From contig NC_049990.1 in NCBI RefSeq assembly GCF_000003815.2, positions 20,474,015-20,538,014 on the forward strand: 64,000 nucleotides of DNA. The letters run 5' to 3'. The translations under genes were made by a program, and so were the position numbers. Origin of the DNA: Branchiostoma floridae. Taxonomy: Eukaryota; Chordata; Leptocardii; Amphioxiformes; Branchiostomatidae. Position 1 is the stretch's first letter. Each line of letters starts with the position of its first letter. Below are positions 1-35,200 of this stretch, in pieces. The notes under the pieces were generated by a model, which searched no databases, had not been told where the DNA came from, and was given only the letters and a program-made list of their open reading frames with translations.

Positions 1-921
1 CATTCAGTTTGCTTCGATCACAAAGTCGGACTGACTGAACCACATGAGACTGGTTGATAAATCTGATAGCTGATGAGGAGAACAACAAAGAGAGGACACT
101 CTCTGAAGAAACATCTAAAACATTTCCGTCAAAGACAGATTCAATACAAGGATACAAACTCTGTACATGATTTGTCTCTGCCAATGCTATCAAGCAAGTC
201 TCTATCTTCTCAAAGGGGCTACTAAACTCGCCATCATTTACCAAAGCTGACAGAGAGTCACCAGCCCTGTCACTGAAAAGCCCACTCACGAAGAAACAAA
301 CAAGAGGCATCCTACCTGCGTTCTGTACCAGTTGCTTAAGTACAGCCGTGTCTGTCATTCTTTCTAAAGCATTCTTGATGTACAGTGCTACACAGTAGTC
401 ATGTAGGAACGTGTTGACAAAGGTGTACATTTTAGTTTCAGTCAGTTTGAGCAGGCCAAAAACTTCACGGTCAAGGTTATTTCTGTCATCTGCACTAAGA
501 TCTATCTCTCTGCAGTTCCTTTCCACAATGCTGCCCAGCCCCTTTGATCCTAACGATATCAGGGATTCAGCTATTGTTTCAGAAAAAGAAGTACATTCTT
601 GTTCTGAAACAATACCAGTTTGCATTGCAAAATGTTTGCAAAGAGAATACTGCAAGAGCTCTGTGAGGGTTAGGGGGAATATATGATTTCTCTCTAGCCA
701 ATAGGTGATAATATGTGGCCAGAAGAAAGGGATCAGTACAACAAGCTCTACTACAGGATCTCTCCATGCGCTGTCTAACAGTAGTTTAACCTGCTCAGTG
801 TCATCAGGTAGGTACTCTTCCGCATAGCTTTCCCACGTGGTAGCGCTCACAGCAGGGGGTGTCCAGGAAGCTGCAGGTGTCATGGTGAGACTCTGAAACT
901 CCTGGACTGTCTGTGCCATGT
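1..921 (-). CDS. copy 1 exon 4 (partial): NLR-type post-ATPase helical region
   Basis: Open from the acceptor to the window edge (about 306 codons). It aligns residue by residue with the first third of copy 2 exon 4: DPVVELVVLIPFFWP, TLTELLQYSLCKHFA and FVNTFLHDYC are recognisable NLR helical or winged-helix motifs. The end of this exon, and any LRRs, lie left of the window. Confidence 0.8.
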
Positions 922-3900
922 CTGTAACCATTAAAATTGTGTTAACATTGACTAGTATGTACCTTGTGTCATTTAAATATAATTGATATGGAATGTAAGT
1001 TCATCTGTGACGGTAGTCAACATTATGTTGGCGGGATCTTCCCCCAACAGAGACGGGGGCATGGAAAAGGTTGGTGGACCCTTCCCTCAACAGAGACAGG
1101 GGCCGATACCGACTGCCAAGCACCTTTGACCCTTTGCTGACGTCACACTTCCGTTTCGGATGTGTGACTCAGGCTCTGGGTCATTTCAACTTGAGAAGGA
1201 TCAGAGGACTGATCGAAAGCTTGTTGGTAAGCGCTTTATTTTGTGCACGGATATATGGCCTTACAATTGTATCATAATAATTGATATGGGTTTGTTTATC
1301 GACACCATTTGAGCTGATATATTATCAACGTCAGAAACCATTTCTACAGAGTAGCCTACATATACATGTATGTTGTTCACCTTCTATACTCTTGTAACTT
1401 TAATTTCAGGTATGCTTACCTCCTGCTTTGAAATATTCTGACCACTGTCGATACTGCTCTTCCAGCATGATGACCCGTATTGCCAAGTCTTGGCCGGCAA
1501 GTTTTTGCATCTCGTCAGTGATGAGGCGGCCTGTAAAGACGGCACTGAGCTGTCCAGACCTGTAAGCTGTCCAGAACGAGTCCAAAGATGATTGACTAAT
1601 TGGAAGCAGATGAAGGATTGCACAACCCATCTTGGTTTCAAGAATATTTATCCCTGATTTAAATAACTGTGACAGAACCTCTTTCGTCTGCTTTTCTGTC
1701 TCTTCCCTGGACAGAAGGCCTTCTGCTTTCTTTAACAAATCTAGTTGGATGCTTCCCAATTTGCCGAGCAAATCTAACTGCCTCGCCTTTTCAGCCTTGA
1801 GTCTGTCCTCTACCCATTGTTCGTCACTGACACCTGTCGCTTGCATGTCTTGGTCTGTGGTTCTGGTTTCTTCGTCCGATGATCCAGAGAAGGATCTTCA
1901 TAGGGAATTCGAGGGTGTCAAGTACACAAGTGTTTGGATCGCTGTATTGAAGGGGCAAAACCAGAGATAGATATTAGACAATAATAATTTTGATACAATA
2001 TTTTCTGTTACACTTACAGTTTCACTGGACAGACTCACATCATTTCAAGTCAACACTGAAAAAACAAATAGCTTTTGATTAATACTGTCATCTTTTCTAA
2101 TATTTTTATCTATAATTCAAAGAAATATATCATGCATCCAATGCCGTGACTAACCTGCAGGCTGAGGTGTGCCAGTTCTCAACGTAGAAAGTCGCTGAAC
2201 GACTTCTGTAGCGATGTTTGTCAATTCGTCAGTAACATCATCTCTCTGTACATGTCTTGCACTCATCTGTTTCAGTGTGGGAGAGTATTTCCCGACTAAC
2301 TCACTAAACGCCTTGAAGCTGTCCTCGTTAGCATCGACCCAAATGGGGAATATCCGTTTGTTATTTTTCAGACACGTTTCGTACTCCAGTCTAGGCCAGT
2401 AGGGTTTGTTCAGGAATGCTGTGCTTACGACAACGACAGCAAGTTCTAAACTTTGACTTGATAAGGTCGAAATTATTCTGTCCCTAATAACTTCGCCCGG
2501 TTTGATGGAAACGTCGTCGAAAAATATGTCCTTCTCCGCCAACCCTTGTTGTTGTAGCGTGGCGACCAAAGGGCGGACAACTGATTCTTTGTCTTCGCCT
2601 GCGTGGATGATGAATACACGGGGCGCTGTGAAGAGGATGAAAATATAAAACTATATAATAATGAAATCTTTATTGACACAACAAAGTACGGCGACTTTCG
2701 TAAGGTCTTTAACAACTCCTGGCAGTACATATATAAACAGACATATATGGAAATCTATTGAGTCTAGCGTGTCATTTATACTTTTGGTTCTATGGTAAAA
2801 AATATTATATATTTGCCTTTATATATTCGCCTATTTGTACACAGTAAGGCTTATCGAAGAAAATCTTTGGGATAACTTATCTGGACCACATTACAAACTA
2901 GAGTTCCACGACCCCATACCTTCGCCAAATGATCCTACCTTTCTTTACAACTGCTGTGTTAGTTGTGTTTGTCATTAATTATGCAAATAAGGTTCTCAAA
3001 TGAGGATCTCATTTGCATAGTTAATGTTCAACGATGTTCACCTGTACATAATTTCCAAATGCTACAAGTAAGAAGTTCATGTAATCTATCACAATGAAAT
3101 TATAGCATTTTCTCATTAATTATGCAAATTAGGTCTTATTTTGCATAATATATATCAATCAATATTCTTCTGCTTCTCAGTTACAAATGTCACATGTTCC
3201 AATGGTCCCATAATGGAACTGAGCGTGTTCACAAGATTTTCTAATTAATTATGCAAATTAGTTACCAATTTGCATAATTAATATGTCATAATATGAAGCA
3301 TCACTTAATCTATCTTCATACCAAAAATCATAACAATCCGTTAACCCCTTCTTCAGTTATTCCCTTTTAAAGTCTGACACTAAACCTGCCCTGCAGTTCC
3401 AAAACAAGCCGCTAGGGGGCCCAAACCTACACCACGCACTCTCGGCATCAAGAGCTGTCTACCACTCAAAAATAATAGCCGCAGCATGTTCAGAACTTGA
3501 GATATCAAACCAGAAAGTTTCGCTGCAGTACCGTAACAGGCTGCTAGGAGGCCCAAAATCTAATCGTTTTTAGGTCTTATCAAGACCTACCCGCATACTA
3601 AATATCAATACAATCCATCTAGGCGTTCTTGAGATATTCTGGTCTTCTACATACATACATACATACATACATACATACAAACAAACGCTACCCAAAATAT
3701 AACCTTCTCGGCGAAGGTAATGAAGAAGTTATAAACAACATAATGCAATACGGCCACTATGAAAGACTCCTAACAGTAGTGAAGAGAAGGAAACTAAAGT
3801 GGTATGGAAACGTAATGAGGTCAAACGGACTGTCCAAAGTCATCCTTCAAGGAACTGTGAAGGGAGCAAGAAGAAGGGGAAGGCAAAAGAAAAATGGACA

Positions 3901-4723
3901 GACAACATTAAGGAATGGACGGGAAAGAGCTTTGCAGTGTCCCTCCCGCTGACGCAGGAACGAATGGAGTGGAGGAACCTAATTCACAGCGACACCATGC
4001 AGCGCCCCCACGACCCGGGAATACTGGGCTAAGGGACCAAAGTACAAAGTACAAAGTACAAGGGTTATCGCCTCCCAGAATGTAGTTGAATTTGTCTGTC
4101 GAACGGAAAGTAGCAAATTCTTTAGATCAAGCGGAAAGAAATCGTGAACAGTCTTCGATCCTATTTAATAACTACATGTGTGCGAACAAACATCATATTT
4201 CAAGTGAAAGAGGGGCTCGCTAATTAAGCGCTCATGTCAATGGACTAATAATGGCGTCAAAAATTATCGAAGATCGAATCAAGCGAGTCAGGCCTAAGTG
4301 ACAGCGGGACATGTCAGCTTATTATATACAATGATTCAGATGAGAACATCCATTCGTTTGTTATCGAAATATGAAATATGATAAGTCCAACCTGAACACA
4401 ATAACGTCCTACATGTAGATACTGTTGTACATACCTTCAGGTGGTCCCTGCTGGCCTTCATCCTTCAGTATCAGTGCTAAATGCGGATAACGGTGCTTCA
4501 GAGCATCTCGAAACACTGCAAATGCATTCGGTCCTCTGGTAGGAAGAATGTCTAACAAGGCTTTAGCTTGGTCTTCACGACTTTGCTGATTCTCAATCTC
4601 ATCAAGGTTCTCACCATTGAGAATTCCGCTGTCCAACAGGCGTCGCCGAATGTCCCTAAACCGCAGATCACTTGTAATCTCCAGGCGTTTGACATGGAGC
4701 AGAACTTTATGTTTTTCCTCCAT
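1..4723 (-). CDS. CARD-TIR-TRADD-N-like-LRR receptor gene, copy 1 (3' end outside window; in-frame stop)
   Basis: Spliced minus-strand gene with exons 4435-4723, 2155-2625, 1420-1941 and 1-921 (open at the window edge). Junction phases agree with copy 2, and the first two exons have exactly the same lengths (289 and 471 nt). The domain order is CARD, TIR, an acidic linker with a TRADD-N-like domain, then an NLR-type helical region; the LRRs would lie beyond position 1. CARD and TIR are adaptor domains of cytoplasmic death and immune signalling. The reading frame holds a TGA at 1898-1900, 14 codons into exon 3, after which the frame is open again. It is therefore either a pseudogene, a gene making a 267-residue CARD-TIR product, or an allele with a nonsense change. 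Product function is inferred from domains. Confidence 0.75.
920..1419 (-). other. copy 1 intron 3 with private insertion
   Basis: Separates exons 4 and 3. Parts match copy 2 intron 3 (both have ATAATTGATATGG). A GC-richer stretch near 1010-1280, with a direct repeat of the type CAACAGAGACAGGGGC, is absent from copy 2, which carries a different insertion at this place. No coding signal seen. Confidence 0.5.
1420..1941 (-). CDS. copy 1 exon 3: linker plus TRADD-N-like domain, with in-frame TGA
   Basis: 522 nt between a tacag acceptor and a gtaagc donor. Entering in the frame set by the TIR exon gives IQTLVYLTPSNSL and then TGA at 1898-1900. Past the stop the frame continues, from MQATGVSDEQ to the end of the exon, and matches copy 2 (MGCAILHLLPISQ, then RVIMLEEQYRQWSEYFKAGG). 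Copy 2 has a serine- and aspartate-rich linker at the position of the stop. Confidence 0.75.
2155..2625 (-). CDS. copy 1 exon 2: TIR domain
   Basis: Opens APRVFIIHAGEDKESVVRPL after a cag acceptor; the split codon joins the G left by the CARD exon. It includes box-2-like FFDDVSIKPGEVI, the strand LELAVVVVS and the helix YWPRLEYETC, with Glu four residues after Trp. Donor is gttagt. The frame is open throughout at 471 nt, the same length as copy 2. Confidence 0.88.
2898..3720. mobile_element. non-autonomous insertion in copy 1 intron 1
   Basis: Copy 2 keeps the uninterrupted site: ACCACATTACAAATGAAGAA near 16050-16065. In copy 1 about 820 bp intervene between the two halves. The insertion begins CTAGAGTTCCACGACCCC and has ACCTTCGCC near its left end and GGCGAAGGT at its right end, an inverted pair. 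It contains several ATTATGCAAAT motifs and ends in a CATA microsatellite. A second copy of its left end sits at 28272-28360. Confidence 0.7.
3649..3684. repeat. (CATA)n microsatellite
   Basis: About eight tandem CATA units followed by CAAACAAACG. It forms the tail of the inserted repeat before its terminal hairpin. Confidence 0.85.
3712..4032 (+). mobile_element. 3' end of a non-LTR retrotransposon (reverse transcriptase tail), decayed
   Basis: Translates as YGHYERLLTVVKRRKLKWYG, then RRRGRQKKK, then WTDNIKEWTGKS and a TAA at 4030-4032. This basic R-G-R-x-K pattern is typical of the C-terminal tail of LINE ORF2. One frameshift lies in the lysine run near 3888. A paralogous tail lies at 16060-16330 in the same intron of copy 2, so the insertion predates the gene duplication. 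Confidence 0.7.
4435..4723 (-). CDS. copy 1 exon 1: CARD
   Basis: Encodes 96 residues starting MEEKHKVLLHVKRLEITSDL. The helical pattern and the segments LDEIENQQSREDQAKALLDI and RGPNAFAVFRDALKHRYPHL are typical of a CARD. The start is the ATG at 4721-4723 in a good context; an upstream out-of-frame ATG lies 16 nt before it. The donor is gtatgt after CCACCTGAAG. It differs from copy 2 by only a few substitutions. Confidence 0.85.
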
Positions 4724-5512
4724 GACTGCCCACAATTCATGAACACTTAGCTTTTAGCTTTTGCTGACGATGCAAAGGCTTTACTCAGTGATATACATGT
4801 TGATATCACACATATTTCAAAATAAGACGTCTTTATGTTTCGTTATCTTCACGCATCCTGTGGGACAAAGGAACATAAAGGATCATTTCGTTGCTGTTCT
4901 TCTTCAGTTTACTCTTCCATTGTTCACTAATCGTTACCACCGTAATTAAGTCTGTACATGATCATGCTAGTCGTCGATAATTGGAGAAAAAAATCGTGCT
5001 TGCCGTTCAGAGAGTCACCTTTATTTTACTTCCGCATTGCCCTCGTTACACTTAAATCTAAAACATCGAGCAGAATTTGACATGTATAGCCAGTATCTGA
5101 TGACGGTATAAAGGACAGAGTTCCGAATGAAATAAATGTTCTTACCTTGATATTTCTTGACTCTCCTCTTGGAGGGAATTTACATGGGGGCAGGCACGGC
5201 CTGTCTTAACTACCTTTACCTGAGAACAGGTGAAAACCTCGCATCAAAACGAGGCTGTGTAGAGTTTCCGATAACACCTCGAGCGGACAAAGGTTATTCA
5301 TGTCTCGGTTCGGATTTTTTTTACGATTGGGGGCCGGTCTGACTCTTTCTACGATAGGTGCTAGCGCTTTTCCTTTAATACATTTTTTTCCGGAATTGAA
5401 TTTTTCCGGTGAAAATCGGTGCCTTGCCACTGATCGACACGTTCATGTGATATCTTCTGTGGAGACATTATTTTAGGTTTTAAAAAGCTGAGATTTTGGG
5501 GGTATGGAAAAG
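4724..5512. promoter_or_regulatory. 5' flank and putative promoter of copy 1, duplicated at 17735-18530
   Basis: Near-identical blocks precede both CARD exons, including CGCATCCTGTGGGACAAAGG and a small palindrome CCTCGCATCAAAACGAGG. Similarity with the copy 2 flank ends near 5512 and 18530, marking the edge of the duplicated unit. Conservation of the flank suggests it carries the promoter; no clear TATA box was placed. Confidence 0.5.
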
Positions 5513-6900: not shown

Positions 6901-9839
6901 TTAACTTTTAGTGCTCTGACTTGTCTCAGCTACTTCAGCCTCTTCTTGCATAGATCCTTCAGGATCTACAGTATGGAATTCATGTTTACCTTTGATCACT
7001 TTAGATCTGCTCTCTACTCCATGTGGTGCAAAGGGCTTGGATAATCTACTTGTCTGACCCTCAGTCCCCTTATAAAACAGTGTCCTTCTCTCTAGTGGAT
7101 TTAGCCTGCGTAAGTAACGTTCTGGATGTTGATAATCACACCGAATGTGATCACATTGTTTCAGTATCTCAACACCCTCATCACTAAAGCAATTGTAGCT
7201 GAGATCAACATCCCATAGCCGTCCCATTCCCTTCACAGTATCAACTACAAGCTGAGCAACAGCATCAGCCATCCTATTGCCATGCAAGTCTATCCGATGT
7301 AAGTTTGTGAGGAAACTTATCTTCCCCATCAGAACTGTACCACCTCTATCAGAGATATCATTGGAAGACAGATCGATGTATCTCACTGACCTCATCTTGT
7401 GAAAAGCCTCTGCAATCAAAATGACACCATCATCTGAAAACTTGTTGGTACTCAGATCAAGGTCTTCCAAACAGACCAGATGACCAACATGGGCTGCAAA
7501 TGATTTTGCACCAGATATAGAAATATTGTTCCACCTTAGGCGCAAACGTTTGATTGACCTCATCTTGTGAAAAGCTTCTGCAATCAAAATGACACCATCA
7601 TCTGAAAATTTGTTCAGACTCAGATGAAGGTCTTCCAAACAGACCAGATGACCAACATGGGCTGCAAATGATTTTGCACCAGATACAGAAATGTAGTTGC
7701 CACCTAGGTGCAAACGTTTGATTGACCTCAACTTGTGAAAAGCCTCTGTAATCACAATGACCCCATCATCTGACAATTTGTTAAAACTCAGATCAAGGTA
7801 TTCCAAACAGACCAGATTACCAACATGGGCTGCGAATGATTTTGCACCAGATACAGAAATGCTGTTGCTATCTAGGCGCAAACGTTTAATTGACCTCATC
7901 TTGTGAAAAGCCTCTGTAATCACAATACATGCATCATCTGGCAACTTGTTACAACTCATATCAAGGTCTTCCAAACAGGACAGATGACCAACATGGGCTG
8001 CAAATGATTTTGCACCAAACAAAGAAATTGGGTTTAAACATAGATTTAGTGTTTTCAGTGACCCCATGTTTACAAATGCCTCTGCTATGGCAGTGCATCT
8101 TGTGTCGTTTATTCCACAGTTAAACAACTTAAACTCCTCAAGACATTCTGAATGTTGAAGACTGACGGCGAGTGCCTTTGCCTCATCATCTGACATTTTT
8201 ACATTTATTTCTAGTTTTTGTAACTTTCTGAGTGCACCAAGGTGCGTCACAGCATGAGAAAGAGCTGTGCCTGATTCACGAAAACCATTACTAATCACAA
8301 GGTCCTTTAGATTAGGTAGCCTGAGGAAGAGCTTTCCTATTGCAGCACCCATCATATCATTCCAATCAGCCGGCAGCACAGTTATACGGAGCTTAACCAA
8401 CGACCATGAGCCCTTAATGCTGTCACACATGATACTGACTTCAGTAGCTGATAGAAAAGTACAATCATCAAATTCTAGATCTTGTAATCGGGCAAGACGG
8501 GGCAGGCTTGACATTAGCATCATTACTGGACTAGTTGTAAGTTTGGATGTACTGCAGTATTTTGTACTTGGAGAAATGTGGTGGACAACATCATCATGAA
8601 CATGGTTACACCTCCTCAGGTCCAGATCCGTGAGAGAAACCATATGCTTCATAGCTTGTATCAGCTGAAACAGCTGATTATCGTTGATTGTGCCCTGTAA
8701 AAACATTTCAATGATAAGTCTTTGTAGAGGGATTTTAGACATAATCGGTTCTTCACTTTGACTTCCTGCTTTCTTCACTGCAGATAACAGAGGAATACAC
8801 TGCAGGAGTAACAGAATGAACTTTCTGTCAGAGACATCAGACCATACATCACTGGACAACCAAACATACTTTTCATCTGGATTAGCTTCCAATTTGCTCA
8901 AAATCTTTGACTCCTGTTCCTTCAGTTTGCTTCGATCACAAAGGCGAACAGACTGAACCACATGAGACTGATTGATAAATCTGATAGCTGCTGAGGAGAA
9001 CAACAAAGAGAGGACACTCTCTGAAGAAACATCTAAAACGTTTCCGCCAAAGACAGATTCAATACACGGATACAAACTATGCACAAGATTTGTCTCTGCC
9101 AGTGCTATCAAGCAAGTCTCTACCTTCTCAAATGGGCTACTAAACTCGCCATCATTTACCAAAGCTGACAGAAAGTCACCAGCCCTGTCACTGAAAAGCC
9201 CACTCACGAAGAAACAAACAAGTGGCATCCTGCCTGCATTCTGTACCAGTTGCTGAAGTACAGCCGTGGCTGTCATTCTGTCTACAGCATTCTTTATGTG
9301 CAGTGCTACACAGTAGTCATGTAGGAACGTGTTAACAAAGGTGAACATTTTAGTTTCAGTCAGTTTGAGCAGGCCAAAGACTTCACGGTCAAGGTTATTT
9401 CTGTCATCTGCACTAAGATTTATCTCTCTGCAATTTCTTTCCACAATGCTGCCCAGCCCTTTTGATCCTAACAATATCAGGGATTTAGCTATTGTTTCAG
9501 AAAAAGAGGCACATTGTTGTTCTGAAACAATACCAATTTGTCTTGCAAAATGTTTGCATAGAGAATACTGCAAGAGCTCTGTGAGGGTTCGGGGGAATGC
9601 TTGGTTTCTCTCTAACCAATAGGTGATAATATGTGGCCAGAAGAAAGGGATCAATACAACGAGTTCTACTACAGGATCTCTCCATGCACTGTCTAACAGT
9701 AGTTTGACCTGTTCAGGGTCGGCAGCTAGATACTCTTCCGCATAGCTTTCCCACGTGGTAGCGCTCATAGCAGTGGGCGTCCGCGAAGCTGCAGGTGTCA
9801 TGGTGAGACTCTGAAACTCCTGGACGGTCTCTGTCATGT
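6901..9839 (-). CDS. copy 2 exon 4: NLR helical region and leucine-rich repeats
   Basis: Residues 427-1405, ending in TAA at 6901-6903. The first part (DPVVELVVLIPFFWP, TLTELLQYSLCKHFARQ, FTFVNTFLHDYCVALHI) resembles the winged-helix and helical segments after the ATPase of NLRs. Ribonuclease-inhibitor-type LRRs follow, including four nearly identical 56-residue units with GAKSFAAHVGHLVCLEDL. The tail is basic and acidic without recognisable motif. Confidence 0.88.
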
Positions 9840-12800
9840 CTGTAACCAGTAAAATTGCGTAAACATCGGGTAGTATGTACCTTTTGTCCTTTAACCCTGT
9901 CCAGACTGGGCTTTTTTGGCATTCCCTGGACCTTTGTATTTTCAAAACGGCTTACTGTACGATCACCAAATTTGCTCGTCGTGTTTCATAATTCCTAAAA
10001 TTTTTATAGCATTATGACGTAATATGACGTAATTATCACGTCATTAATTGATTTTTTTGGCTAAACCAAAATTAGTGATTTTTGTAACATTTGCCTTTCA
10101 GAAACCCGTTGCCATGGAACACGAAAAATTCTAAACTTACTTTTTTTATAACTTGTTGCTGACCATATTCTAGGAAAAGTCACCAAGTTTTGTTGTTCTA
10201 GCACAAACCGTTTGGGAGCTATACGACGTCAAAGTTGGCGTGGTTACTTTTAGCACCCCCCCCCCCACACACACACGCAAGTCTGGATAGGGTAAAACAT
10301 AATTGATATGGGTTTGTTTGTCGACACCATTTGAGCTAATATATCATCAACGACAGAAACCATTTCTACAGAGGAAGTAGCCTCCATGTAAAGTGTCCAC
10401 ATTCTATACTCTTGGAACTTTAATTTCAGGTATACTTACCTCCTGCTTTGAAATATTCAGACCACTGTCGGTACTGCTCTTCCAGCATGATGACCCGTAT
10501 TGCCAAGTCTTGGCCGGCAAGTGTTCGCATCTCATCAGTGACAAGACAGTCGGAGAAACCGCTACTCAGCTTCCCAGTCTTATAGTCACCCCAAAATCTC
10601 TTCAAAGCATGTAGCCTTTGGGGGACTATGTGGATGATGGCGCATCCCATTTTGACCTTAAGGATCTGCAAACTTGATTGATAAAGGTGATCTAACATTT
10701 CCTCTGTCTTTTGTTCAATCTTCTCTCTAGACAGAAGACCTTCTGCCTTCTTCAATAGTGCTATATTATGTTCTCCTACTTGTCTTATCAGTTCTAGCTG
10801 CTGCTTTGCCTTTTCATCCTTGAGTTTATCTTCTATCTGCTGTTCGTCACTGGCGCCTGTCGCTTGCGTGTCTTGGCCTTTGCTACTGGTTTCGTCATCT
10901 GACGATCCAGCATCGCTCGAGGATGGAGAGGGTGTCAAGTACAAAAGGGTTTGGATAGCTGTAAAAAAAATCAATGCTAGCGTTGAAAATAGCGTTTCTA
11001 ATGTTGGTCTCGAAAAACAGCAAAACTCACATGATCTTTTCCAAATAATTTTCTATGATAAGTTAGCCCATGGATTTCGCTACTCTACTAATGTCGATCC
11101 ACAACGGAATTTTTTTTAGAATCATTGATTCATTCTATCTTAATATTGTGCATATAATTCAATCTAGCAATTATTAAACGCCATTACAAACCTGCAGGCT
11201 GAGGCGTGCCACTTCTTAATGTAGAAAGTCGCTGAACGACTTCTGCAGCGATGTTTGTCAGCTCGTCAGTAACATCATCTCTCTGTACACGTCTTGCACT
11301 CATCTGTTTCAGTGTGGGAGAGTATTTCCCAACTAACTCACTGAAGGCCTTGAATTTGTCCTCGTTAGCATCTACCCAAATTGGGAATATCCGTTTGTTG
11401 TTTTTCAGACACGTTTCGTATTCCAGTTTAGGCCAGTAGGGTTTGTTTAGGAATGATGTGCTGACGACAACGACAGCAAGTTCTAAACTTTGACTCGATA
11501 AGGTCGAAATTATTCTGTCCCTAATGACTTCGCCTGGTCTGATGGAAACGTCATCGAAAAATATGTCCTTCTCCGCCAACCCCTGTTGTTGTAGCGTGGC
11601 GACCAAAGGGCGGACAACTGATTCTTTGTCTTCGCCTGCGTGGATGATGAATACACGGGGCGCTGTGAAAAGGACGAAAAAAATAATATATAATAAGGAA
11701 ATCTTTATTGAAACAACAATTTACGGCGACTTTCGTAAGGTCTATAGCAACCACGGCACGAAAAACGGTATTTAAGGATGCTGAAACCATGCGTAATGTT
11801 CACGTATTTTCCTCCTTTACGGATATATACACCACTTATACGAGTACGTAAATATTGCCTTTAAGTGGTCTTTCTGTAGGTCCGTGTTAGTCCTTATTTT
11901 CCGGATTTCCCGTTGTCTTTCAGCAGCTTAAAGATGTCGTAAATGATTTTTAAAACCCCATTAAAACTTGTTGAAAGTTCACGTTTATTTGATCTAAATC
12001 CTCTTTACGTCTCATATACAATTGCATTAAGTGGATTATAACGTGTGTTTTAGTGCCTTTTCAGCAGCTTAAAGTTGCCATAAATACTTATTAAAACGCC
12101 CTTAAGACATGTTTAAACTGCACGTTTATTTGATCTAAAGCCTCTTTACGTCTCATATACGTGTGCATTAAGAGGATTATAACGTGTGTTTAGGTGCCTT
12201 TTCAGCAGTTTAAAGTTGCCATAAATATCTATTAAAACGCCCTTAAGACATGTTTAAAATTCACGTATATTTGATCTAAAGCCTATTTACGTCTCATATA
12301 CGTGTGCATTAAGTGGATTATAACGTGTGTTTAGGTGGCTTTTCAGCAGCTTAAATTTGCCATAAATACCTATTTTAACGCCCTTAAGACTTGTTTAAAC
12401 TTCACGTTTATTTGATCTAAAGCCTGTTTAGGTCTCATATACGTGTGCATTAAGTGGATTATAACGTGTGTTTAAGTGCCTTTTCAGAAGCTTAAAGTTG
12501 CCATAAATACCTATTATAACGCCCTTAAGACTTGTTTAAACTTCACGTTTATTTGATCTAAAGCCTATTTACGTCTCATATACGTGTGCATTAAGTGGAT
12601 TCTAACGTGTGTTTAGGTGCCTTTTCAGCAGCTTAAATTTGCCATAAATACTTATTAAAACGCCCTTAAGACATGTTTAAACTTCACGTTTATTTGATCT
12701 AAAGCCTATTTACGTCTCATATACGTGTGAATTAAGAGGATTTAATGTGTCTATATTTTTCTTTTTAGCAGCTTAAAATTGTCATAAATACGTACTAAAA

Positions 12801-15800
12801 CACTCTTAAGACATGTTTAAAGTTCCCTCTGTACGTCTCATATACGTGTGCATTAAGTTGATTATAAGGTGTGGATAAGTGCCATTTTAGCAGAATAATC
12901 ATTAGCACATTTCAAAGCAAGAAAATACAATGGATGAAACTTTGAAATTTTATTGAATTACGAGAAAATATTACATGGAAAGGTAAAAAAAAACCTACAG
13001 CCTACTAGGTATTTGTGGCCTTTCATTCTGATGTAGTCGGCAGTTGAAACAATCACAACGGTTGCGCAATTCCGTGCAGCAGTCCACAGTCCCATTTCCA
13101 GTGTCGGGTGAAGCGTCTCGGCGTAAGTTAAAAAGAGCACACATGTACAGTTCCATCTGGTCACCACAGGAATAAGAATCCGGTAAGATCTAGAGTAGTG
13201 GCCGATATGACTCGTGCTGTTGGATGGTCCTGGATTCTGTGAACGCGAAACATGTTCAGCTTGCAGTGTCGGCCTCTATTAATCCGGATGGTACAAGGGC
13301 CGTGATTTCCATTCTGTGTCGATTTCCAACAACAACAGCTTGTACAGAATGATAGCCACCTCGTATATTTGAGTCAAATTCCGTCACCGGGGGTCCTAGG
13401 CGGTAAAAGCGGTGTCGCGGCCACAACTTGCGGGCTAGAACAGGCCCAAACTTTCTTCAATACTTCTCTTCAAAAATGAACGCCTGGAAAATAACCGCTC
13501 CTTGTCGTACGTATGGCCCGTAAATTTGAACCCCCCACCCTTTTCTGCCATTGGATACATCCTATCACATGACACAGCTGTGCCACAGACGGACCAAGGA
13601 AGTTCAACCTCCTTGGACGGACGGAGGCGTGCGCCCCATGGCGAGTACGAAATAACGCTGAATAAATTTACATCTTGCCTGCCCACGCATATCACCATAA
13701 TTAACCCAAACAAACACGAGCAACACGAGAAGACACCGCCTGTGTGCACAAACTGTTCTTTCTCGACGCTTGCTTGTAGATTAAGAAATAAACATATTTC
13801 GTACATTTACCTGTAGTAAGAACTGCTTGCCGTTTTATAGAGAAAACACAACTTACTACACAAAACACTATACCTACTACATCCTTATTCTTCAAGCAGA
13901 GGTTGAGTCGCGGAGATATTCATAGCAGTAGTCGGGATTTCTACCGTCTCTTAGCTCGAGTGTCAACTTGCCACAAAGAAAACGGCCTCACCCTGATTTA
14001 GACCCTGGAATTTCATAACATATATGCGGTATAAAATAAAAAGGAAAGGGTCTGCTCCTGTTCGCATAAACTGCGCTTCAAACATGCCGTATGTTTAGCA
14101 GAAAAAGGCAACGCTTCATAAAACCTTTGAGACGGTATTAGCCACTAGATAAAACGGGGGTAGTGCCCCCAAGTTTGCTAAAGCTACGCGGATTCAAAGA
14201 TTAAACATGTCGTATGTTCAACAGAAATACGAAACATTTCATATACGTCTTGGCAACATATAAGGTAAACGGGGGAGGTCTCCCCTAGTTCGCTTAAACT
14301 GCGCGGATTCAAAGATTAAACTTGTTGTATGTTCAACAGAAATAGGCAACATTTCATATACGTCTTGACAACATAAAAGCTAAACGGGGGAGGTCTCCCC
14401 TAGTTCGCTTAAACTGCGCGGATTCAAAGATTAAACATGTCGTATGTTCAACAGAAATAGGCAACATTTCATATACGTCTTGGCAACATATAAGCTAAAC
14501 AAGGGAGGTCTCCCCTAGTTCGCTTAAACTGCGCGGATTCAAAGATTAAACATGTCGTATGTTCAACAGAAATACGCAACATTTCATATACGTTTTGGCA
14601 GCATATAAGCTAAACTGGGGAGGTCTCCCCTAGTTCGCTTAAACTGCGCGGATTCAAAGATTAAACATGTCGTATGTTTTACAGAAATACGCAACATTTC
14701 ATATACGTTTTGGCAGCATATAAGCTAAACTGGGGAGGTCTCCCCTAGTTCGCTTAAACTGCGCGGATTCAAAGATTAAACATGTCGTATGTTTTACAGA
14801 AATACGCAACATTTCATATACGTTTTGGCAACATATAAGCTAAACAAGGGAGATCTCCCCTAGTTCGCTTAAACTGCGCGGATTCAAAGATTAAACATGT
14901 CGTATGTTTTACAGAAATACGCAACATTTCATATACGTTTTGGCAGCATAAAAGCTAAACGGGGGAGGTCTCCCCTAGTTCGCTTAAACTGCGCGGATTC
15001 AAAGATTAAACATGTCGTATGTTCAAATGAAATACGCAACATTTCATATACGTTTGGCAACATATAAGCTAAACAAGGGAGGTCTCACCTAGTTCGCTTA
15101 AACTGCGCGGATTCAAAGAATAAACATGTCGTATGTTCAAATGAAATACGCAACATTTCATATACGTCTTGGCAAATATATTAACAGGGGAGGTCTTCCC
15201 TTCTTTGTATAAATGACGGTTCGAAATAAATTATATATATGGCATCCTTCGGTCAATATTGACCATGGTATACGCAACATTTCATCTAACGTAAAAGAGC
15301 GCATATAAGCTAACCGTGAGAGGTTCTCCCCTGTTCGAATTAAACCTTGCGCACAGAAAGTTTGAATACGTCAAATGCTTTCGGAATAGCTAAAAAAACA
15401 CAGAAGATTATTGTATTTGACTTTGTATTGTATTGTATTTGTATTTGCTGAGGTATAAACATAACATTTTGTACCAGAAAGCGCAATAATTTTCAGTTTT
15501 GACTGTAAATCTTGCCACTGTTATAAAACAGATGACGCAATGTTTTATCTTACACCAGACAAAGGCTTACTACATTTGACTTAGCCGGTTAACATGTATT
15601 TTGTAACAGATCTAGAGAAACGGTATTTGTCCGTTTTGACAGAAAATATTTTTGAGACATTTAAGTTGTCTTTTCGGCATACTAAAATACATGTAAAATT
15701 CACGTAAAGAAACACAACAGATTAAGTTAGATTTACAAACGCTGAAATCTTGCCAAATGTATGTTTCCGATGCCTTTGATAGATCTTAAAATCTGCTGAA

Positions 15801-17734
15801 ATATTTCTCCGCCTTTAAGGGCTTTATACGTATCTCTGAAACTTTGCTTAAAAAGTTGTTTTCGTGCTGTGAACTACTTGCAGTACATATATAAACAGAC
15901 ATATATGGAAATCTATAGATATGAATACGTCAACATATTGAGTCTAGCGTGTCATTTACACTGTTGGTTCTACGGTAAAAACATTATATATTTGCCTATT
16001 TGTACACAGTAAGGCTTATCGAAGAAAATCCTTTGGATAACTTATCTGGACCACATTACAAATGAAGAAGTTATAAACAACATAATACAATACGGCCACT
16101 ATGAAAGACTCCTAACAGTAGTGAAGAGAAGGAAGCTAAAGTGGTATGAACACGTAATGAGGTCAAACGGACTGTCCAAAGTCATCCTTCAAGGAACTGT
16201 GAAGGGAGCAAGAAGAAGGGGAAGGCAAAAGAAAAATGGGCAGACAACATTAAGGAATGGACGGGAAAGAGCTTTGCAGCGTCCCTCCCGCTAACGCAGG
16301 ATCGAATGGAGTGGAGGAACCTGATTCACAAATGTCTACAGGAACCATTGTAGAAATGTGTAGGATTTCTACAAAACTACACTGCCTACATGTCAAACTT
16401 GGATGGTCCGCTTCCTGTGTCCCTCTCTACAAATATCTACAGTGACAAGTGTAGAAATGTGTAGGATTTCTACATCACTACAAATGTCTACAGATACCAT
16501 TGTAGAAATGTGTAGAATTTCTACAAAACTACACTGCCTACATGTCAATCTTTGATGGTCCGCTTCCTGTGTCCCTCTCTACAGATATCTACAGTGACAA
16601 GTGTAGAAATGTGTAGGATTTCTAAATCACTACAAATGTCTACAGGAACCATTGTAGAAATGTGTAGAATTTCTACAAAACTACACTGCGCGTTTAATCT
16701 GTGATCTATTACATGGTACATCACGAAATCTCAGACGGCAATATGCCTGGCACGGCTACGGCGAGGGTGTTGGTGAATCTGTGATCTCTTACATGGAACA
16801 TCACGAAATTTCTTACGGCGAAATGCCTGACACGGCTACGGCGAGGGTTTCGCAGCGACACCGCACGGCTAGCTGCATTTCGCGGCGAACATGGAACATC
16901 ACGAAATTTCTTACGGCGAAATGCCTAACACGGCTACGGCGAGTGTGTCGCAACGACACCGCACGGCTAGCTACATTTCGCGGCGATTTCGTGATGTGGT
17001 ACATGGAACATCTGCCGGGTTAAAGGACCAAAGTACAAGGTACAAAGTACAAGGGTTATCGCCTCCCAGAAGGTAGTTGAATTTGTCTGTCGAACGGAAA
17101 GTAGCAAATTCTTTAGATCAAGCGGAAAGAAATGTGAACACTTTGTGCGTTTATCATTATATCGTGAACAGTCTTCGATCCCATTTAATAACTACATTTG
17201 TGCGAACAAACATCATATTTCAAGTGAAAGAGGGGCTCGCTAATTAAGCGCTCATGTCAATGGACTAATAATGGCGTCAAAAATTATCGAAGATCGAATC
17301 AAGCGAGTCAGGCCTAAGTGACAGCGGGACATGTCAGCTTATATACAATGATTCAGATGAGAACATCCATTCGTTGTTTATCGAAATGTAAAATATGATA
17401 AGTCCAACCTGAACATAATAACGTCCTAGATACTGATGTACATACCTTCAGGTGGTCCCTGTTGGCCTTCGTCGTTCAATATCCGTGCTAAATGCGGATA
17501 ACGGTGCTTCAGAGCATCTCGAAACACACCAAATGCATTCGGTCCTCTGGTAGGAAGAATGTCTAACAAGGCTTTAGCTTGGTCTTCACGACTTTGCTGA
17601 TTCTCAATCTCATCAAGGTTCTCGCCATTGAGGATTCCGCTGTCCAATAGGCGTCGCCGAATGTCCTTAAACCGCAGATCACTTGTAATCTCCATGCGTT
17701 TCGCATGGAGCAGGACTTTATGTTTTTCCTCCAT
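6901..17734 (-). CDS. CARD-TIR-TRADD-N-like-LRR receptor gene, copy 2 (complete model)
   Basis: Exons 17446-17734, 11192-11662, 10440-10958 and 6901-9839. All junctions have GT-AG signals and compatible phases, giving 1405 residues. Order: CARD (1-96), TIR (about 97-235), acidic Ser/Asp-rich linker, TRADD-N-like domain (about 330-425), NLR-type helical/winged-helix region (about 430-800), LRRs (about 830-1320), charged tail. This is a cytoplasmic innate-immune or cell-death sensor by domain content. The helical region resembles what follows the NACHT ATPase in NLRs, yet no exon with a Walker A or B motif is present. Intron 1 (5.8 kb) is swollen by satellites and a large element. It is paralogous to copy 1. 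Ligand and partners unknown. Confidence 0.82.
9890..10297. mobile_element. MITE-like insertion in copy 2 intron 3
   Basis: Ends are inverted: TTTAACCCTGTCCAGACT at the left and AGTCTGGATAGGGTAAAA at the right (16 of 18 matching). It is absent from the matching intron of copy 1. It includes a C-run/CA microsatellite near 10257-10276. Confidence 0.6.
10440..10958 (-). CDS. copy 2 exon 3: acidic linker and TRADD-N-like domain
   Basis: Residues 254-426. After a Ser/Asp-rich linker (SPSSSDAGSSDDETSS) comes a charged helix with LLKKAEGLLSREKIEQK. An alpha/beta unit follows: LQILKVKMGCAIIHIVP, then RFWGDYKTGKLS, then LAIRVIMLEEQY. The pattern strand-strand-helix, with a conserved aromatic/YxxGxL turn, then a further strand parallels the N-terminal domain of TRADD. 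The assignment is by pattern only. It is present in both copies and therefore old. Confidence 0.6.
11192..11662 (-). CDS. copy 2 exon 2: TIR domain
   Basis: Residues 97-253. Box 1 is RVFIIHAGED and the BB-loop region is FFDDVSIRPGEVI. The helix PYWPKLEYETCLKN has Glu177 four residues after Trp173, the spacing of the catalytic Glu in SARM1-type NADase TIRs but also of non-enzymatic TLR TIRs. It ends in a gtttgt donor. Confidence 0.88.
11917..12893. repeat. 141-bp tandem satellite, about 7 units
   Basis: Units start at TTTTCAGCAGCTTAAAG near 12058, 12199, 12340, 12481 and 12622, a 141-bp period. Each carries CTCATATACGTGTGCATT and the block CGCCCTTAAGACATG. Edge units are more diverged. Confidence 0.92.
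12958..13450 (-). pseudogene. coding-like decayed segments in the core of the 4.1-kb element
   Basis: Three consecutive minus-strand pieces look protein-like but are broken. The first is LWPRHRFYRLGPPVTEF...GGYHSVQAVVV, ending at a stop. The second is shifted: KLNMFRVHRIQDHPTARVIS. The third is a cysteine-rich piece with VDCCTELRNRCDCFNCRLHQ. Family not recognised. They could be remnants of the element's own gene or of a host exon. Confidence 0.35.
13451..14049. other. unique sequence between the satellites
   Basis: A 123-codon minus-strand frame (13435-13806) overlaps it but lacks family resemblance. The sequence is less AT-rich than the satellites. Nothing else is identifiable. Confidence 0.3.
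14055..15195. repeat. 115-bp tandem satellite, about 10 units
   Basis: GTTCGCTTAAACTGCGCGG recurs at 14288, 14403, 14518, 14633, 14748, 14863 and onward, a 115-bp period. Each unit holds CATTTCATATACGT and a short inverted motif GGGGAGGTCTCCCC. Degenerate copies extend to about 15350. Confidence 0.93.
16060..16330 (+). mobile_element. LINE reverse transcriptase tail in copy 2 intron 1
   Basis: Same ORF2 tail as at 3712-4032 (ERLLTVVKRRKLKWYEHVMR, RRRGRQKKK). Its last part is replaced by minisatellites after GAACCTGATTCACA, removing the final 14 residues and the stop seen in copy 1. Confidence 0.65.
16329..16690. repeat. 152-bp minisatellite, about 2.4 units
   Basis: AAATGTCTACAG recurs at 16329, 16481 and 16634. 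Units contain the inverted pair TGTAGAAAT and ATTTCTACA. Confidence 0.85.
16712..17012. repeat. GC-rich tandem repeat, about 3 units
   Basis: The unit includes ATCACGAAATTTCTTACGGC and CGACACCGCACGGCTAGC. The first copy is partial. Absent from copy 1. Confidence 0.85.
17446..17734 (-). CDS. copy 2 exon 1: CARD
   Basis: 96 residues from MEEKHKVLLHAKRMEITSDL to the gtatgt donor. The CARD core (LDILPTRGPNAFGVF, then LKHRYPHLARIL) resembles RAIDD- and caspase-9-type CARDs. The ATG at 17732-17734 is chosen because the CARD begins there and the copy 1 equivalent aligns. An out-of-frame upstream ATG at 17748-17750 could modulate translation. Confidence 0.85.
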
Positions 17735-29200: not shown

Positions 29201-32200
29201 CAGTAGTAGGTGGCAAGACTTACCTTCAACATAAGGCTCCAGCGCCCTGGGAACCAGCGTCTTGGCGATTTTCAGGTTCTCTGGGGCACACTTTCCCGAC
29301 TCCAGCCCGTACGCCATACCCATCCGCTTCAACACCTCGATGTCATCGTGGATCTCAAACGTGTTATCGAAGTTAAACAAATATTCATACCTGGGAGGGA
29401 GAAATGTCTGTGTTAGTGTCTTCTTTTAACATCCACAGCTGTAAGTAAGCAGCTAGTTAGAGCATGTCTTATCATTCAAAATATAGGACTTAAATTTAAA
29501 CTTTTAGTTAGAATTGTGTCCCGTGAGGTCTAGCAATTATTGGACTTCATATACACATACCATACCTTATATCTTACAACTTTGCAATATTCATAACCGC
29601 GAACACAGATAGGCTAAGACCGAACACAATACCTCCGTTTATATAATAGGTAATGACAATCAGATGACCTATTGTTGGGATGCTACAGTTAATAACTGTT
29701 TTCTTGCTGGTGTTACCTACTGTTTGTGGACTAAGACTTACTTGTCGTTGGAGATGCTACAGTCGATGACTGTTTTCTTGCTGGTGTTACCTACTGTTTG
29801 TGGACTAAGACTTACTTGTCGTTGGAGATGCTACAGTCGATGACTGTTTTCTTACTGGTGTTACCCACTGTTTGTGGACTAAGACTTACTTGTCGTTTGA
29901 GATGCTACAGTCGATGACTGTTTTCTTGCTGGTGTAACCTACTGTTTGTGGACTTACTTGTCGTTGGAGATGCTACAGTCGATGACTGTTTTCTTGCTGG
30001 TGTTACCTACTGTTTGTGGACTAAGACTTACTTGTCGTTGGAGATGCTACAGTCGATGACTGTTTTCTTGCTGGTGTTACCTATTGTTTGTGGACTAAGA
30101 CTTACTTGTCGTTTGAGATGCTACAGTCGATGACTGTTTTCTTGCTGGTGTAACCTACTGTTTGTGAACTTACTTGTCGTTGGAGATGCTACAGTCGATG
30201 ACTGTTTTCTTGCTGGTGTTACCTATTGTTTGTGGACTAAGACTTACTTGTCGTTTGAGATGCTACAGTCAATGACTGTTTTCTTGCTGGTGTTACCTAT
30301 TGTTTGTGGACTATGACTTACTTGTCGTTGGAGATGCTACAGTCAATGACTGTTTTCTTGCTGGTGTTACCTACTGTTTGTGGACTTACTTGTCGTTGGA
30401 GATGCTACAGTCGATGACTGTTTTCTTGCTGGTGTTGACGATGATGAAGGGCAGCTGGATGGCAGAGTTCTGGTTGGGCGGCCCCGTGCCCGCCTGTTCC
30501 ATGCGCTTGTTCCTCTGCACCAGGTTTTTGAAGGCGATTTGCTGTAGTATAAGCTCTTGTAGCTGCTGCTGCTTCTGCTTGATCCTGTCTATCCGCCGCT
30601 GCTTTTCAAGCTGTAGGGTCAACACAACAACAAACTTTCAACAACAACGTTCTCCTTACATTTTCATTGGCAGAAGTTAGTAAATAAATATGGCAGGGTT
30701 GGACCAAGTCCACTAGCCCTATTGTCCCGGGCAAGTGAAATTACTGATCGGGCAAGTGCATGTCTTACCCCACTTGTCCGATCAGGCAAGTAAGATTTTT
30801 CCATCAGAGAGATTTTGATATACTTGTTACTTTTCACAGTCAAAGCAGCAAGCATTGTTCAACACATAAAAATAGAGCCATCAATAAAAGAATTCCATTG
30901 ATGGAATTGAAAGAATTCCACTGATGGAATTGAAAACACTTAAGTGAAAAAGTTAGTTCAGACAAGTAAATTTACTTGCCTGATAGGAGAAGTGAATTTC
31001 AGAAAACTTTTTCCAACGATGCATCATGGCATCCAATTTAGAACCTGGCACTACTATCTGGATGGTACCCAGGCTAATGATATGTAAGATTGATGTTCAA
31101 TAACATCAGAGGGGTGTATATTCTATTTTCATTGAATGATATCTATGATAGTTGCTTGTAATCAGAAACTGTTGTATGTTAGAGTCATTGGCAACATAAG
31201 CAATGTATAGGTAGGAATGTCACAGTTGCACTGCCTGACCTCTAGGTTCTGACACTCCTGTGCAGAGTTGGTGGGCAGGCCGATCCACTTGATCTCTTTC
31301 TTCTCCTTGGAGATGATGTTCATGGCCATCAGCACGTTCAGGGCGTCGTACACGCGTCTTCGGATGTTCTTCTGGTCATACGCCTGGAGGGAAACACGAT
31401 ATACACGTTAAAATACTTCCCAAACCATCTCCTTTTCTCTGGCCATAGGCCACACAAGTTTTGCCCAAACACTGCAGCAGTCCACTTGTCACTTTATCAA
31501 TTACCATGCACTTTCCCAAATGCTGAGTTGACAAAAGCAGTGTATACCATCTTTCAAAAAGCTTTTTGTATGATTAGGATGGTAATTGAACTCATGACCT
31601 ACAGCATACTAGGCGAGTTTTAAATCTCAACACACTGCAGCACCATAAATTATTGCCATCCTCCAATCTCCTGCGACATTGGATTTTTGCGCCATGGTCA
31701 TAATACATCTTGTTAAATGAAATACACATTGTTCATAACTAGAAAGGCCACATTGGCAAGCAAATGCACAATATTTCCCTCTGAACGATCCCATATGCAA
31801 GAATAGCCTGATTAAATCTCGCTTATAGCCGCCCGGCAAACATCCGCCGGCCGGGAGGGGCCAGTTACAGCCCTGGACAGCGGAGTTTGTGTTACACAGA
31901 CTAATGCGAAAATCGATTTGAAAATAAAATGCCAAAAGCACCCTTGGCAAGTAAATGATCCCCGTAACAAGTGTGTACTGTTCCAAAGGAAAATGGACTC
32001 TTCAATATTCCTAAAAAAGGAGGAGAGAGCAAACTACTCACATTTCCTATCTGGTCGGAGGGCGACAGGTGCCTCTGGGGGTCGCTGAACTCCGCCACTA
32101 ACTCGTCCGCGACCTCGTTGTACGATGTGGTGCCTTTCCTCTGGACCTTCTCACACACCTTCATGGAGAAATGTCGCAGACCCTTCCCTCCCTTTTCTCC

Positions 32201-35200
32201 CTTCTTCCTTTTGCTGTAAAACAACACAACACTTATTACACCAACATCATTGAAGAGGTTCATCAGCAGGGCTCAAAATTCATTTTTGATATTAGGTGCA
32301 CTGGTGCACCCAGCTTAAAAAATTGGGTGCACCAAAAAATATTTGGGTGCACCACTTGAACAGGGGGGAACAGCATGGTAGACAACTCAGAAACTCGTGT
32401 CTGTACCCTCAACCCAAGGGCACAAGGCGATACACGACGAGCGCCAAGCCTACACTGGCTAAACTACTCAGTGAGGACCTAAAGAACTGATCTACTATGT
32501 GTACTGGACAGTACTAGTAAACTTGTTCAGAGACCGACTTGTACATAAATTGTAATAGCAATAGTCCGAAAACACCATATTTTGTGTTAATTAGTAGATG
32601 TCATTTGTAAATATTGTGATCCTGTGAACCGTTATATGTATTATTGATAACGTTGTGCTAATTTTACTGTATGAGTCGGCGCAATTCAGTTGTTACTGCC
32701 AAGCCGATGTTGTTTTTTATCAATAATAAACCATTTACTACTTGAATTTAAGTAGAATGTCAGAAAAACCTAGCAACAAAACTTAGTTACAAGCTATCAG
32801 ATTCTTAAACAAGCACTATGACAGACATTTTTATCATCTTTATCATCTGGATGTCAAGAATATAATGTATACTAGTATACTTATATATTTACATAAATAA
32901 ACGTAAGAAAACATTTGAGTGCACCCTGTGCACCCACAGAAAATAATTGGGTGCACAGCTCCAGTTTTGGGTGCACCTGGGTGCACATGCACACAGTATT
33001 TCGAACCCTGATCAGTCACGTATGCAAACAGTTACAACTGAGAACTGAGACTAGGTCATTCCCCTGACGATGATGTGCTGGTAGACATCGAAAATTTAGG
33101 AGGTATGTACTGTACCTTTACAAAAACAGTCATTGATTGATGAAAATTATTATACCAACAACTCAAAGATACAGTCAAACCTGGCCAAGAAGACCACTCA
33201 GGGGAAAAAAATAGAATCTGGTCTATGTAGACAGGTGGTCACTACAAACAGCATTCCTAAAGCTTGTGTCAAATGGAAAAAAAAGTCATCTAAGGGACCA
33301 GCAAAATTGGCCAGGTGGTCCTTTTGTGGAGGTGGCCACTTGTACGGAATTGACTGAATCAAAATATTCAGCTAGTTTAACATGTCAAGACCTGACGGAG
33401 AATATAGTTGAGCAGAAACTTGTACATGCAGTAAAAGTCCCATGAATAAGACCATGGCTATGATGTTACCAGACGCGACTTCAGCTTTAAACGGTTTCCA
33501 CCCCCCTTATTGTTTGTGACCCATTGTCGTTAATCTTTTGTTGTTGAATCTGTCATTTTCGTCTTCAGGTCATGGATTTGTTTTCACAGACAGGACGGCA
33601 TTTCTTAATGCCCCAACAAGCAACAAATTTCGTTCCCAGACAGAGAAATTGGTCCTGGAGACAGCACTTGATTTAATATATTATATTGTCTAATTGGTTC
33701 TAATACATTAGAATCTTTGATTGAAAACACAGCACTAATGGTTGATATACTGACCTTTCCGAGAAGTCTGCTTCTATGAAGTCATGAGTTCTCTTTCTCA
33801 CCTGGCCCCTGAAAAAAGGTCAAAGCAAGGTCAAAACTGATCAAATAGAAACATGATAAACAAGATGTTAGTGCTATCTGAAGAAGTCTAGAAGTCCTGC
33901 TGCAGTACAATTGAAAGCCGCTGGGGGCCCATAATAAGGCCAGGCATGATGAAATGTAAAATCTTGACTGGTCAGGAATACCGGTATTCACCATTATCAC
34001 AGCCCAGGTATGACATAAATATTACACTACCATCCCACTAATTCTTAGTCTGGGTACCATCCGGAAAGAAGTTCGCGGGCGTTTATATACAGTCGCTTCT
34101 CCCTCTGACATTCATTATTTTCTGTTGTTCCGTCTGGGATCCTTGACCACGTTAACATCTGGAATCGTCAAAATTTTGGACGAGGGCCCTGATTGGTCCC
34201 TTCACATAAGCGAATTAAGAAATGTGTTCACGTGCTAGTTCGAACAGGCGTTCCAATACACGAACACCCTTCGTCCGCTTGCAGGACGGACTGTTGTCAT
34301 CGAACAAGCACGCTAGAATCAATTCCTTAATTTGCTCATTAACTGACGTTACAAACAAACGGTTTGAATGTGCAGGTCTCCAGACGGATAGCAGAAGCGA
34401 ACATAGGATTGAACAACTACCTGGTGGTACCCAGGCTAGCTAATTCTTAGGGTACAAATATATCATAGGCCTTGCCCGAGTTGTATGATGTTTGGGTCTG
34501 TAATGACTGTACAGTTACACTACAGTCCTGCTATAGCGAGGTACATATAATAAAGGCCTTACCCGACTTGTATGAGGTTGGGGTCCGTAACAACAGTTGT
34601 GTACGTTGTCTGCTGCGCTCTGGCGGGACTCTGTTGTACTTGGACCAGCTGTGCCACGGGCGTCGGCCGCGCAGGGCTCTGCTGCAGGATCTGAAAAATT
34701 TTTTGCTGTTTTAAAGGGGATAAAAGGTTAAAACTAGAGTCTATAACATGTCATGTCAAGCAGTGTGGAGCATTCATTGAAAATTACAGCAGCAGTTTTT
34801 TACAATGACAGTTTGGAAAGATAGAAGCAATAAAACTTGTGTTATAATTGCAGATTTTAATGTACCTCATCATGTTACACTTATTACAAGTCTACAGTTT
34901 TTCAAATCTATGAAGATGAATATTATGATAAAGATACCTGGCGCCATGCAAAATTTATTTATTTATTTCAAATATTGCTGAACTTAAGGTTGGGAGGAAA
35001 GTTTACATTGCTGTCTCAGTTCATGGAGTAAATTTTTGACATTCAAGTTTTCCAAAAACCCTTTGCTTCTACGCCCCCAACACCTTGGCTGGAACCTCAT
35101 CGCCACAAGTTTCCAAACAAAAAAAAATCCTTCCACGTCTATGTTTGAGAGCCAATGGGAATACATAACTGTCATTATTGTAGCCTAAGACATGGCATGT

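Follow-up and report, generated by a model that had tools for sequence, protein, structure and literature searches.

A lancelet CARD-TIR-TRADD-N-LRR gene family with an NLR-like predicted body and no detected nucleotide-binding domain

Signalling by NLRs is understood as an ATP-driven switch. Kaur 2021 (PMC8195603) reports that TRADD-N proteins have undergone lineage-specific expansion in Branchiostoma and in other marine animals; in these proteins a constant death-fold and TRADD-N part is joined to variable flanks, including a GT4-TRADD-N-LRR form. Zhang 2008 (PMC2575513) gives 28 TIR domain combinations for amphioxus, of which 20 are amphioxus-specific, and names TIR-NACHT hybrids. Here we describe a gene, copy A, on the minus strand of a 64,000-nucleotide stretch of Branchiostoma floridae DNA (contig NC_049990.1, positions 20,474,015 to 20,538,014; hereafter the window), which carries a CARD, a TIR, a TRADD-N-like domain and LRRs. 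We give roughly an even chance (about 0.5) to the reading that it encodes an intracellular immune receptor in which an NLR sensing body (HD1-WHD-HD2-LRR) without a nucleotide-binding domain is joined to a CARD-TIR-TRADD-N cassette of phase-1 exons. We base this on the exon structure, its presence at seven loci, purifying selection, the NLR-like predicted fold and the lack of a canonical P-loop; we infer the transcript, the cellular location, the ligand, the NADase activity and the order of events.

Four exons of copy A (17734-17446, 11662-11192, 10958-10440 and 9839-6901) join into a frame of 1405 amino acids with no internal stops. Each intron is bounded by GT-AG and, by exon lengths, every junction is phase 1, which bears out the four phase-compatible exons proposed in the preliminary description of this DNA. 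The features are as follows.

17446..17734, minus strand: exon 1, start codon and CARD (Pfam CARD PF00619, E 8e-16), with a gt donor at its end
11663..17445, minus strand: intron 1
11192..11662, minus strand: exon 2, TIR with a WxxxE motif (WPKLE; TIR_2 PF13676, E 1e-10; best TIR structure, E 1e-12)
10440..10958, minus strand: exon 3, acidic/helical linker and TRADD-N-like domain (TRADD-like_N below the cut-off here; homologues to E 6e-7)
9840..10439, minus strand: intron 3, the expected site of a nucleotide-binding domain exon, with none found by Walker A scan or in open frames
6901..9839, minus strand: exon 4, HD1-WHD-HD2-like helical region (about 9837-8640; AlphaFold and PDB comparison), LRR array (Pfam LRR), C-terminal tail and stop
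7387..8028, minus strand: tandem repeat within the LRR array, 168 bp, 3.8 copies

Intron 1 also holds long minisatellites at 11918-12825 (141 bp period) and 14167-15201 (115 bp period).

The CARD, the TIR and several LRR families (best LRR_6, E 2e-31) exceed their Pfam cut-offs in copy A, as had been predicted from the letters alone, and an ATG is present in all nine CARD exons compared (copy A and homologues). Because the TIR precedes the LRRs, the chain does not follow the TLR layout of an LRR ectodomain and then a C-terminal TIR. It has the C-terminal LRRs and the N-terminal death-fold effector domain (the CARD) of an NLR, and no NACHT or other nucleotide-binding domain with a Walker A motif was found in it. 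Specifically, a scan of all six frames of the whole window for the canonical Walker A pattern GxxxxGK[ST], the only P-loop pattern used, gave a single match, at 37350 on the minus strand, in a 59-amino-acid frame outside the gene. Pfam detected no NACHT in the exons of copy A or of its sister copy B, and intron 3 (600 bp in copy A, 498 bp in copy B) showed no NACHT-like stretch when its minus-strand open frames were read by eye. The introns thus hold no P-loop exon by the canonical pattern, as first claimed. A NACHT exon hidden between exons 3 and 4, which would have refuted that claim, was not seen, the checks for a degenerate exon being the Walker A scan and a reading of the frames; we reject such an exon as far as these two readings reach. 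Genome-wide (host assembly of 513 Mb in 431 contigs, used for all such searches), NACHT PF05729 gave at least 104 matches, a lower bound as 103 of 152 candidates were scored. Among the matches listed, those on the contig of the window (C12) lie only at 3.34 and 21.89 Mb, and none of the 104 falls in the 20.42-20.54 Mb cluster to which copy A belongs.

That cluster was found by tblastn of the four exons over C12:20424001-20538014, which returned five tandem copies that share one strand and one exon order.

C12:20443546-20438430: copy c1, with a change of frame near the LRR end
C12:20450895-20445650: copy c2
C12:20461869-20453153: copy c3, with a 100-base gap inside exon 4
Window 1-4753, minus strand: copy c4, here copy B, which meets a 6440-base assembly gap before its LRR part
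Window 17734-6901, minus strand: copy c5, here copy A
4435..4723, minus strand: copy B exon 1, CARD
2155..2625, minus strand: copy B exon 2, TIR
1420..1941, minus strand: copy B exon 3, TRADD-N, with an in-frame TGA near its start
1..921, minus strand: copy B exon 4, HD1-WHD-HD2 part, with the LRRs expected past the window edge, in or beyond the 6440-base gap

Since the single in-frame TGA is the 14th codon of its exon 3, copy B may be broken or may use another acceptor. The four-exon set recurs at C12:22.81 Mb and C14:13.12 Mb, making seven loci, some of them incomplete; at C12:22.81 Mb only about 550 residues of exon 4 were matched, and the CARD exon has a separate LRR block upstream of it. 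Near this copy, in C12:22819932-22821692, a frame that by eye resembles a LINE endonuclease/reverse transcriptase lies beside an LRR block. Donors and acceptors are conserved across the copies with small variants. Because seven loci carry the same exon order, we reject a one-off or chance assembly. The gene model was read from genomic sequence, and in six of the seven copies exon 4 has an ATG two bases past its acceptor, so exons 1-3 and exon 4 might instead belong to separate transcripts. We regard such an artefact as very improbable, given that order, acceptor and phase are conserved in the seven loci, that copy c1 has T in place of M at this ATG position, and that homologous exons also lie downstream of a TRADD-N exon at four loci on contig C215.

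The helical region that opens exon 4 gave only chance-level rows in Pfam (DUF6463, E 0.075; MASE2, E 0.19) and in PADLOC and NCBIfam, and PDB sequence and profile searches with it returned no NLR. Its AlphaFold model has a pLDDT of 73, and in a PDB comparison (a VIA-align second look at Foldseek's matches) ranks 1-33 are all NLR-family or NLRP-complex chains; a structure prediction from two input sequences reached a pLDDT of 34. On the strength of the predicted structure, we conclude that this region resembles the HD1-WHD-HD2 fold of NLRs and count that fold among the NLR features of copy A. The post-ATPase NLR part of the preliminary description therefore stands by predicted structure but not by sequence, which matches no NLR family.

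The same region occurs at 26 genomic places, including an array on C215, and a C215 relative used as query finds 40. Compared by eye, neither set coincides with the listed NACHT places, and in a scripted comparison no helical place lay within 12 kb downstream of any of 81 NACHT places, all of these lists being lower bounds. With no such co-location in the listed places, we reject the idea that exon 4 is the NACHT exon of a TIR-NACHT gene with its front recently cut off. At the C215 and C3 loci that were read, the open frame starts 36 and 112 codons ahead of the helical match, which leaves too little room for a NACHT domain in the same exon. As separate observations, C215:588001-594500 belongs to an array whose genes combine TRADD-N with an NLR-body-LRR part, with no NACHT detected, and short matches of the C215 helical body (residues about 10-77) occur on C10, C2, C7, C1, C5 and C4, mostly in frames of 340-370 amino acids. 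The claim of a non-standard NLR or TLR layout without a nucleotide-binding domain is supported by the domain searches, the fold comparison, the seven loci and the genome-wide NACHT search taken together.

Evidence for the TRADD-N-like domain comes mainly from homologues. TRADD-like_N remains below its cut-off in exon 3 of copy A (E 0.09 and 0.07 in two Pfam runs) and of copy B (22.7 bits vs a cut-off of 23.7), and exceeds it in a homologous exon on C215 (29.7 bits); all seven aligned homologues match at E<=0.1, the strongest down to E 6e-7. A PDB search with a profile of the TRADD-N homologues matched no TRADD structure. Going by the profile matches we take the domain as real; the earlier assignment holds by way of the homologous exons and not for copy A by itself. 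With the CARD exon upstream, the gene has both a TRADD-N domain and a death-like domain N-terminal to it, as in the TRADD-N constant/variable family.

We then compared genomic neighbourhoods, taking 27 of 29 TRADD-N places (two 33-residue fragments set aside), 25 of 26 helical places (the second half of one exon set aside), the 32 strongest of 64 TIR places, 21 of 58 CARD places and 81 of 104 NACHT places (split pieces and the C11:15.17-15.26 Mb array set aside). A TRADD-N exon is followed within 12 kb by a helical/LRR exon at 11 of the 27 places, namely the seven loci and four on C215. The 32 TIR places have TRADD-N downstream in 12 cases and NACHT in 3, within the same distance, and 13 of the 21 CARD places lie ahead of a TIR. 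One TRADD-N place (C215:717826) is followed by NACHT. Elsewhere P-loop frames lie downstream of cassettes, at C7:5.22 Mb and at C223:99 kb and 172 kb. By eye we take the frames that follow a C223 cassette with CARD and a C7 cassette with no CARD detected to be GTPase-like, that after another C223 cassette (TIR-TRADD-N) is presumably ATPase-like, and the frames after TRADD-N exons on C11 and C15 we take to be ankyrin-like or coiled-coil/NHL-like, the relation in each case being one of adjacency only. Paralogues thus differ in their C-termini, as expected of the TRADD-N family (LRR exons at 11 places, other frames adjacent, by eye). Since related cassettes adjoin other exons elsewhere in the genome, the CARD-TIR-TRADD-N and TIR-TRADD-N cassettes look like a shuffled family of "constant cassette plus variable sensor", with the LRR branch being an NLR body without its motor. 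Upstream of a CARD-TIR-TRADD-N gene on C4 there is also a helicase-like frame (C4:23409977-23410396), RIG-I-like by eye.

At three loci a TIR of the same family sits upstream of a NACHT match at a distance of about 1.1-1.5 kb, namely C16:15.04 Mb (84% identical), C6:1.84 Mb (81%) and C4:18.63 Mb (45%). TIR-matched partners therefore exist. This bears on the main rival to our reading, in which the motor acts in trans: the copy A protein would be a sensor or signalling subunit that joins the wheel of a NACHT-bearing paralogue through CARD-CARD, TIR-TIR or TRADD-N contacts. We consider this unlikely, as the candidate TIR-NACHT loci sit on other contigs and any pairing with them is putative.

Several results suggest that the TIR is of a bacterial type. 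Among its PDB matches are 3h16 (E 1e-12), AbTIR (E 2e-11) and TcpB, which we take to be bacterial TIR structures, and no TLR, MyD88 or SARM1 row was listed at E<=1. Against prokaryotic defence profiles, from libraries that hold no animal families, the copy B TIR exon matched PDC-S66 (2e-19), ThsB (3e-11) and a retron TIR (4e-13). A scan of bacterial and archaeal genomes for relatives, which reaches close relatives only, gave 29 pattern matches with none confirmed. The WxxxE glutamate is kept in all 11 TIR exons compared; NADase activity of most bacterial TIRs depends on this residue, according to the available text of PMC11374754. Judged by sequence, the lancelet TIR is similar to bacterial NADase TIRs, and it seems to be an enzyme and not just an adaptor.

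Ratios of nonsynonymous to synonymous substitution (dN/dS, NG86 method, copy A as reference) are 0.02-0.15 for the TIR, 0.18-0.47 for the CARD, 0.24-0.34 for TRADD-N, 0.26-0.50 for the helical part and 0.46-0.69 for the LRRs. The set excludes copy c3 and the copies at C12:22.81 Mb and C4:30.6 Mb; for the CARD, dS against C4:23.40 Mb was not usable, and the copy B LRR value spans the assembly gap and takes the LRR block at C12:20466603-20467553 to be the tail of copy B. All usable values are below 1, so the exons are under purifying selection, with the TIR most and the LRRs least constrained, a profile that is consistent with a signalling end held constant and a sensing end free to vary. Exon 3 of copy A is only 60-63% identical to that of c1, c2 and B (dS 0.88-1.04), whereas the CARD, TIR and helical parts are 86-99% identical (dS 0.10-0.20). 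The copy A type of exon 3 is also found in c3 and in the C12:22.81 Mb copy, and exon 3 thus exists in two lineages. That it diverged while the other parts stayed much more alike suggests exon exchange or gene conversion between copies.

Loss of the motor would be expected to abolish self-activation of an NLR body. The protein could accordingly act as a scaffold, a decoy or a dampener. Such an LRR protein, of NLR origin, would bind ligands or partners and compete for the assembly of CARD or TIR but would not set it off. We find this improbable, as the strong constraint on the TIR and the 11 of 11 retained WxxxE motifs would rather favour an active enzyme.

In the receptor we propose, the fast-evolving LRRs would most likely bind or guard a ligand, and binding would cluster or uncover the N-terminal cassette. 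The CARD and TIR could then self-assemble, the TIR degrading NAD+ or making a nucleotide signal, the CARD recruiting a caspase or adaptor and the TRADD-N domain bridging partners. Assembly would depend on domain clustering and not on ADP/ATP exchange. With moderate confidence we prefer LRR-triggered clustering of the CARD and of a TIR that acts as an enzyme to a purely adaptor role, because of the bacterial-type TIR matches and the kept WxxxE. More tentatively, lancelets may possess motorless NLRs as a class spread over several loci: the body would have lost its nucleotide-binding domain, the alpha/beta TRADD-N domain would stand in its place, and sensing would be coupled directly to a CARD and a bacterial-type NAD-cleaving TIR; the same body occurs without a detected NACHT in the large C215 array. 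The preliminary description, which offered constitutive or ligand-induced adaptor clustering as a possible mode of action, gave a layout that is supported here but was incomplete, lacking copy B, the family context, the modular TRADD-N membership and the enzyme-like TIR.

If it is true that a conserved NLR body exists without a nucleotide-binding domain, then the body can work in another way, and the need for a motor in NLR activation becomes testable. The presence of a CARD and a probable NADase TIR in a single chain would also tie an animal receptor directly to the logic of NAD cleavage in the immunity of bacteria and plants.

Elsewhere in the window, 31904-32272 on the minus strand holds a DP/E2F-family-like frame (E2F_TDP, E 1.4e-5, 25.2 bits vs a cut-off of 25.7), and 62398-62670, also minus, a 29-residue match to cohesin subunit SA-1/SA-2 (E 2e-6).

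A search of literature text, figures and supplements lying outside it, found no CARD-TIR-TRADD-N-LRR protein and no repeated HD1-WHD-HD2-LRR body without NACHT. One of the closest likenesses is to the metazoan TRADD-N constant/variable proteins of the DEDD2 clade, which in the available text of PMC8195603 share the death-fold plus TRADD-N constant part, the variable flanks and a cephalochordate expansion; the phase-1 exons of the lancelet gene also agree with that account. Unlike the proteins described there, the lancelet gene has a TIR between CARD and TRADD-N, and its LRR exon opens with a predicted NLR HD1-WHD-HD2-like body. With NLRC4, NOD2 and NLRP3 it shares an N-terminal death-fold domain and a predicted HD1-WHD-HD2-like fold followed by LRRs, but in place of their nucleotide-binding domain, which is not detected here, the chain has TIR and TRADD-N. 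As in the amphioxus TIR hybrid genes (PMC2575513, available text), a TIR has been shuffled onto immune domains; in contrast to the TIR-NACHT genes named there, NACHT is not detected, and CARD and TRADD-N are present. Coral glycosyltransferase-NACHT-LRR genes, as described in the available text of PMC12314368, likewise combine a shuffled N-terminal domain with LRRs in expanded immune families, but the coral LRR forms often keep NACHT whereas none was found in the lancelet gene. Finally, the TIR shares sequence similarity and WxxxE with bacterial defence TIRs (Thoeris ThsB, retron TIR) and NADase TIRs (AbTIR), and differs from them in being set, with a predicted enzymatic activity, in an animal CARD-LRR receptor.
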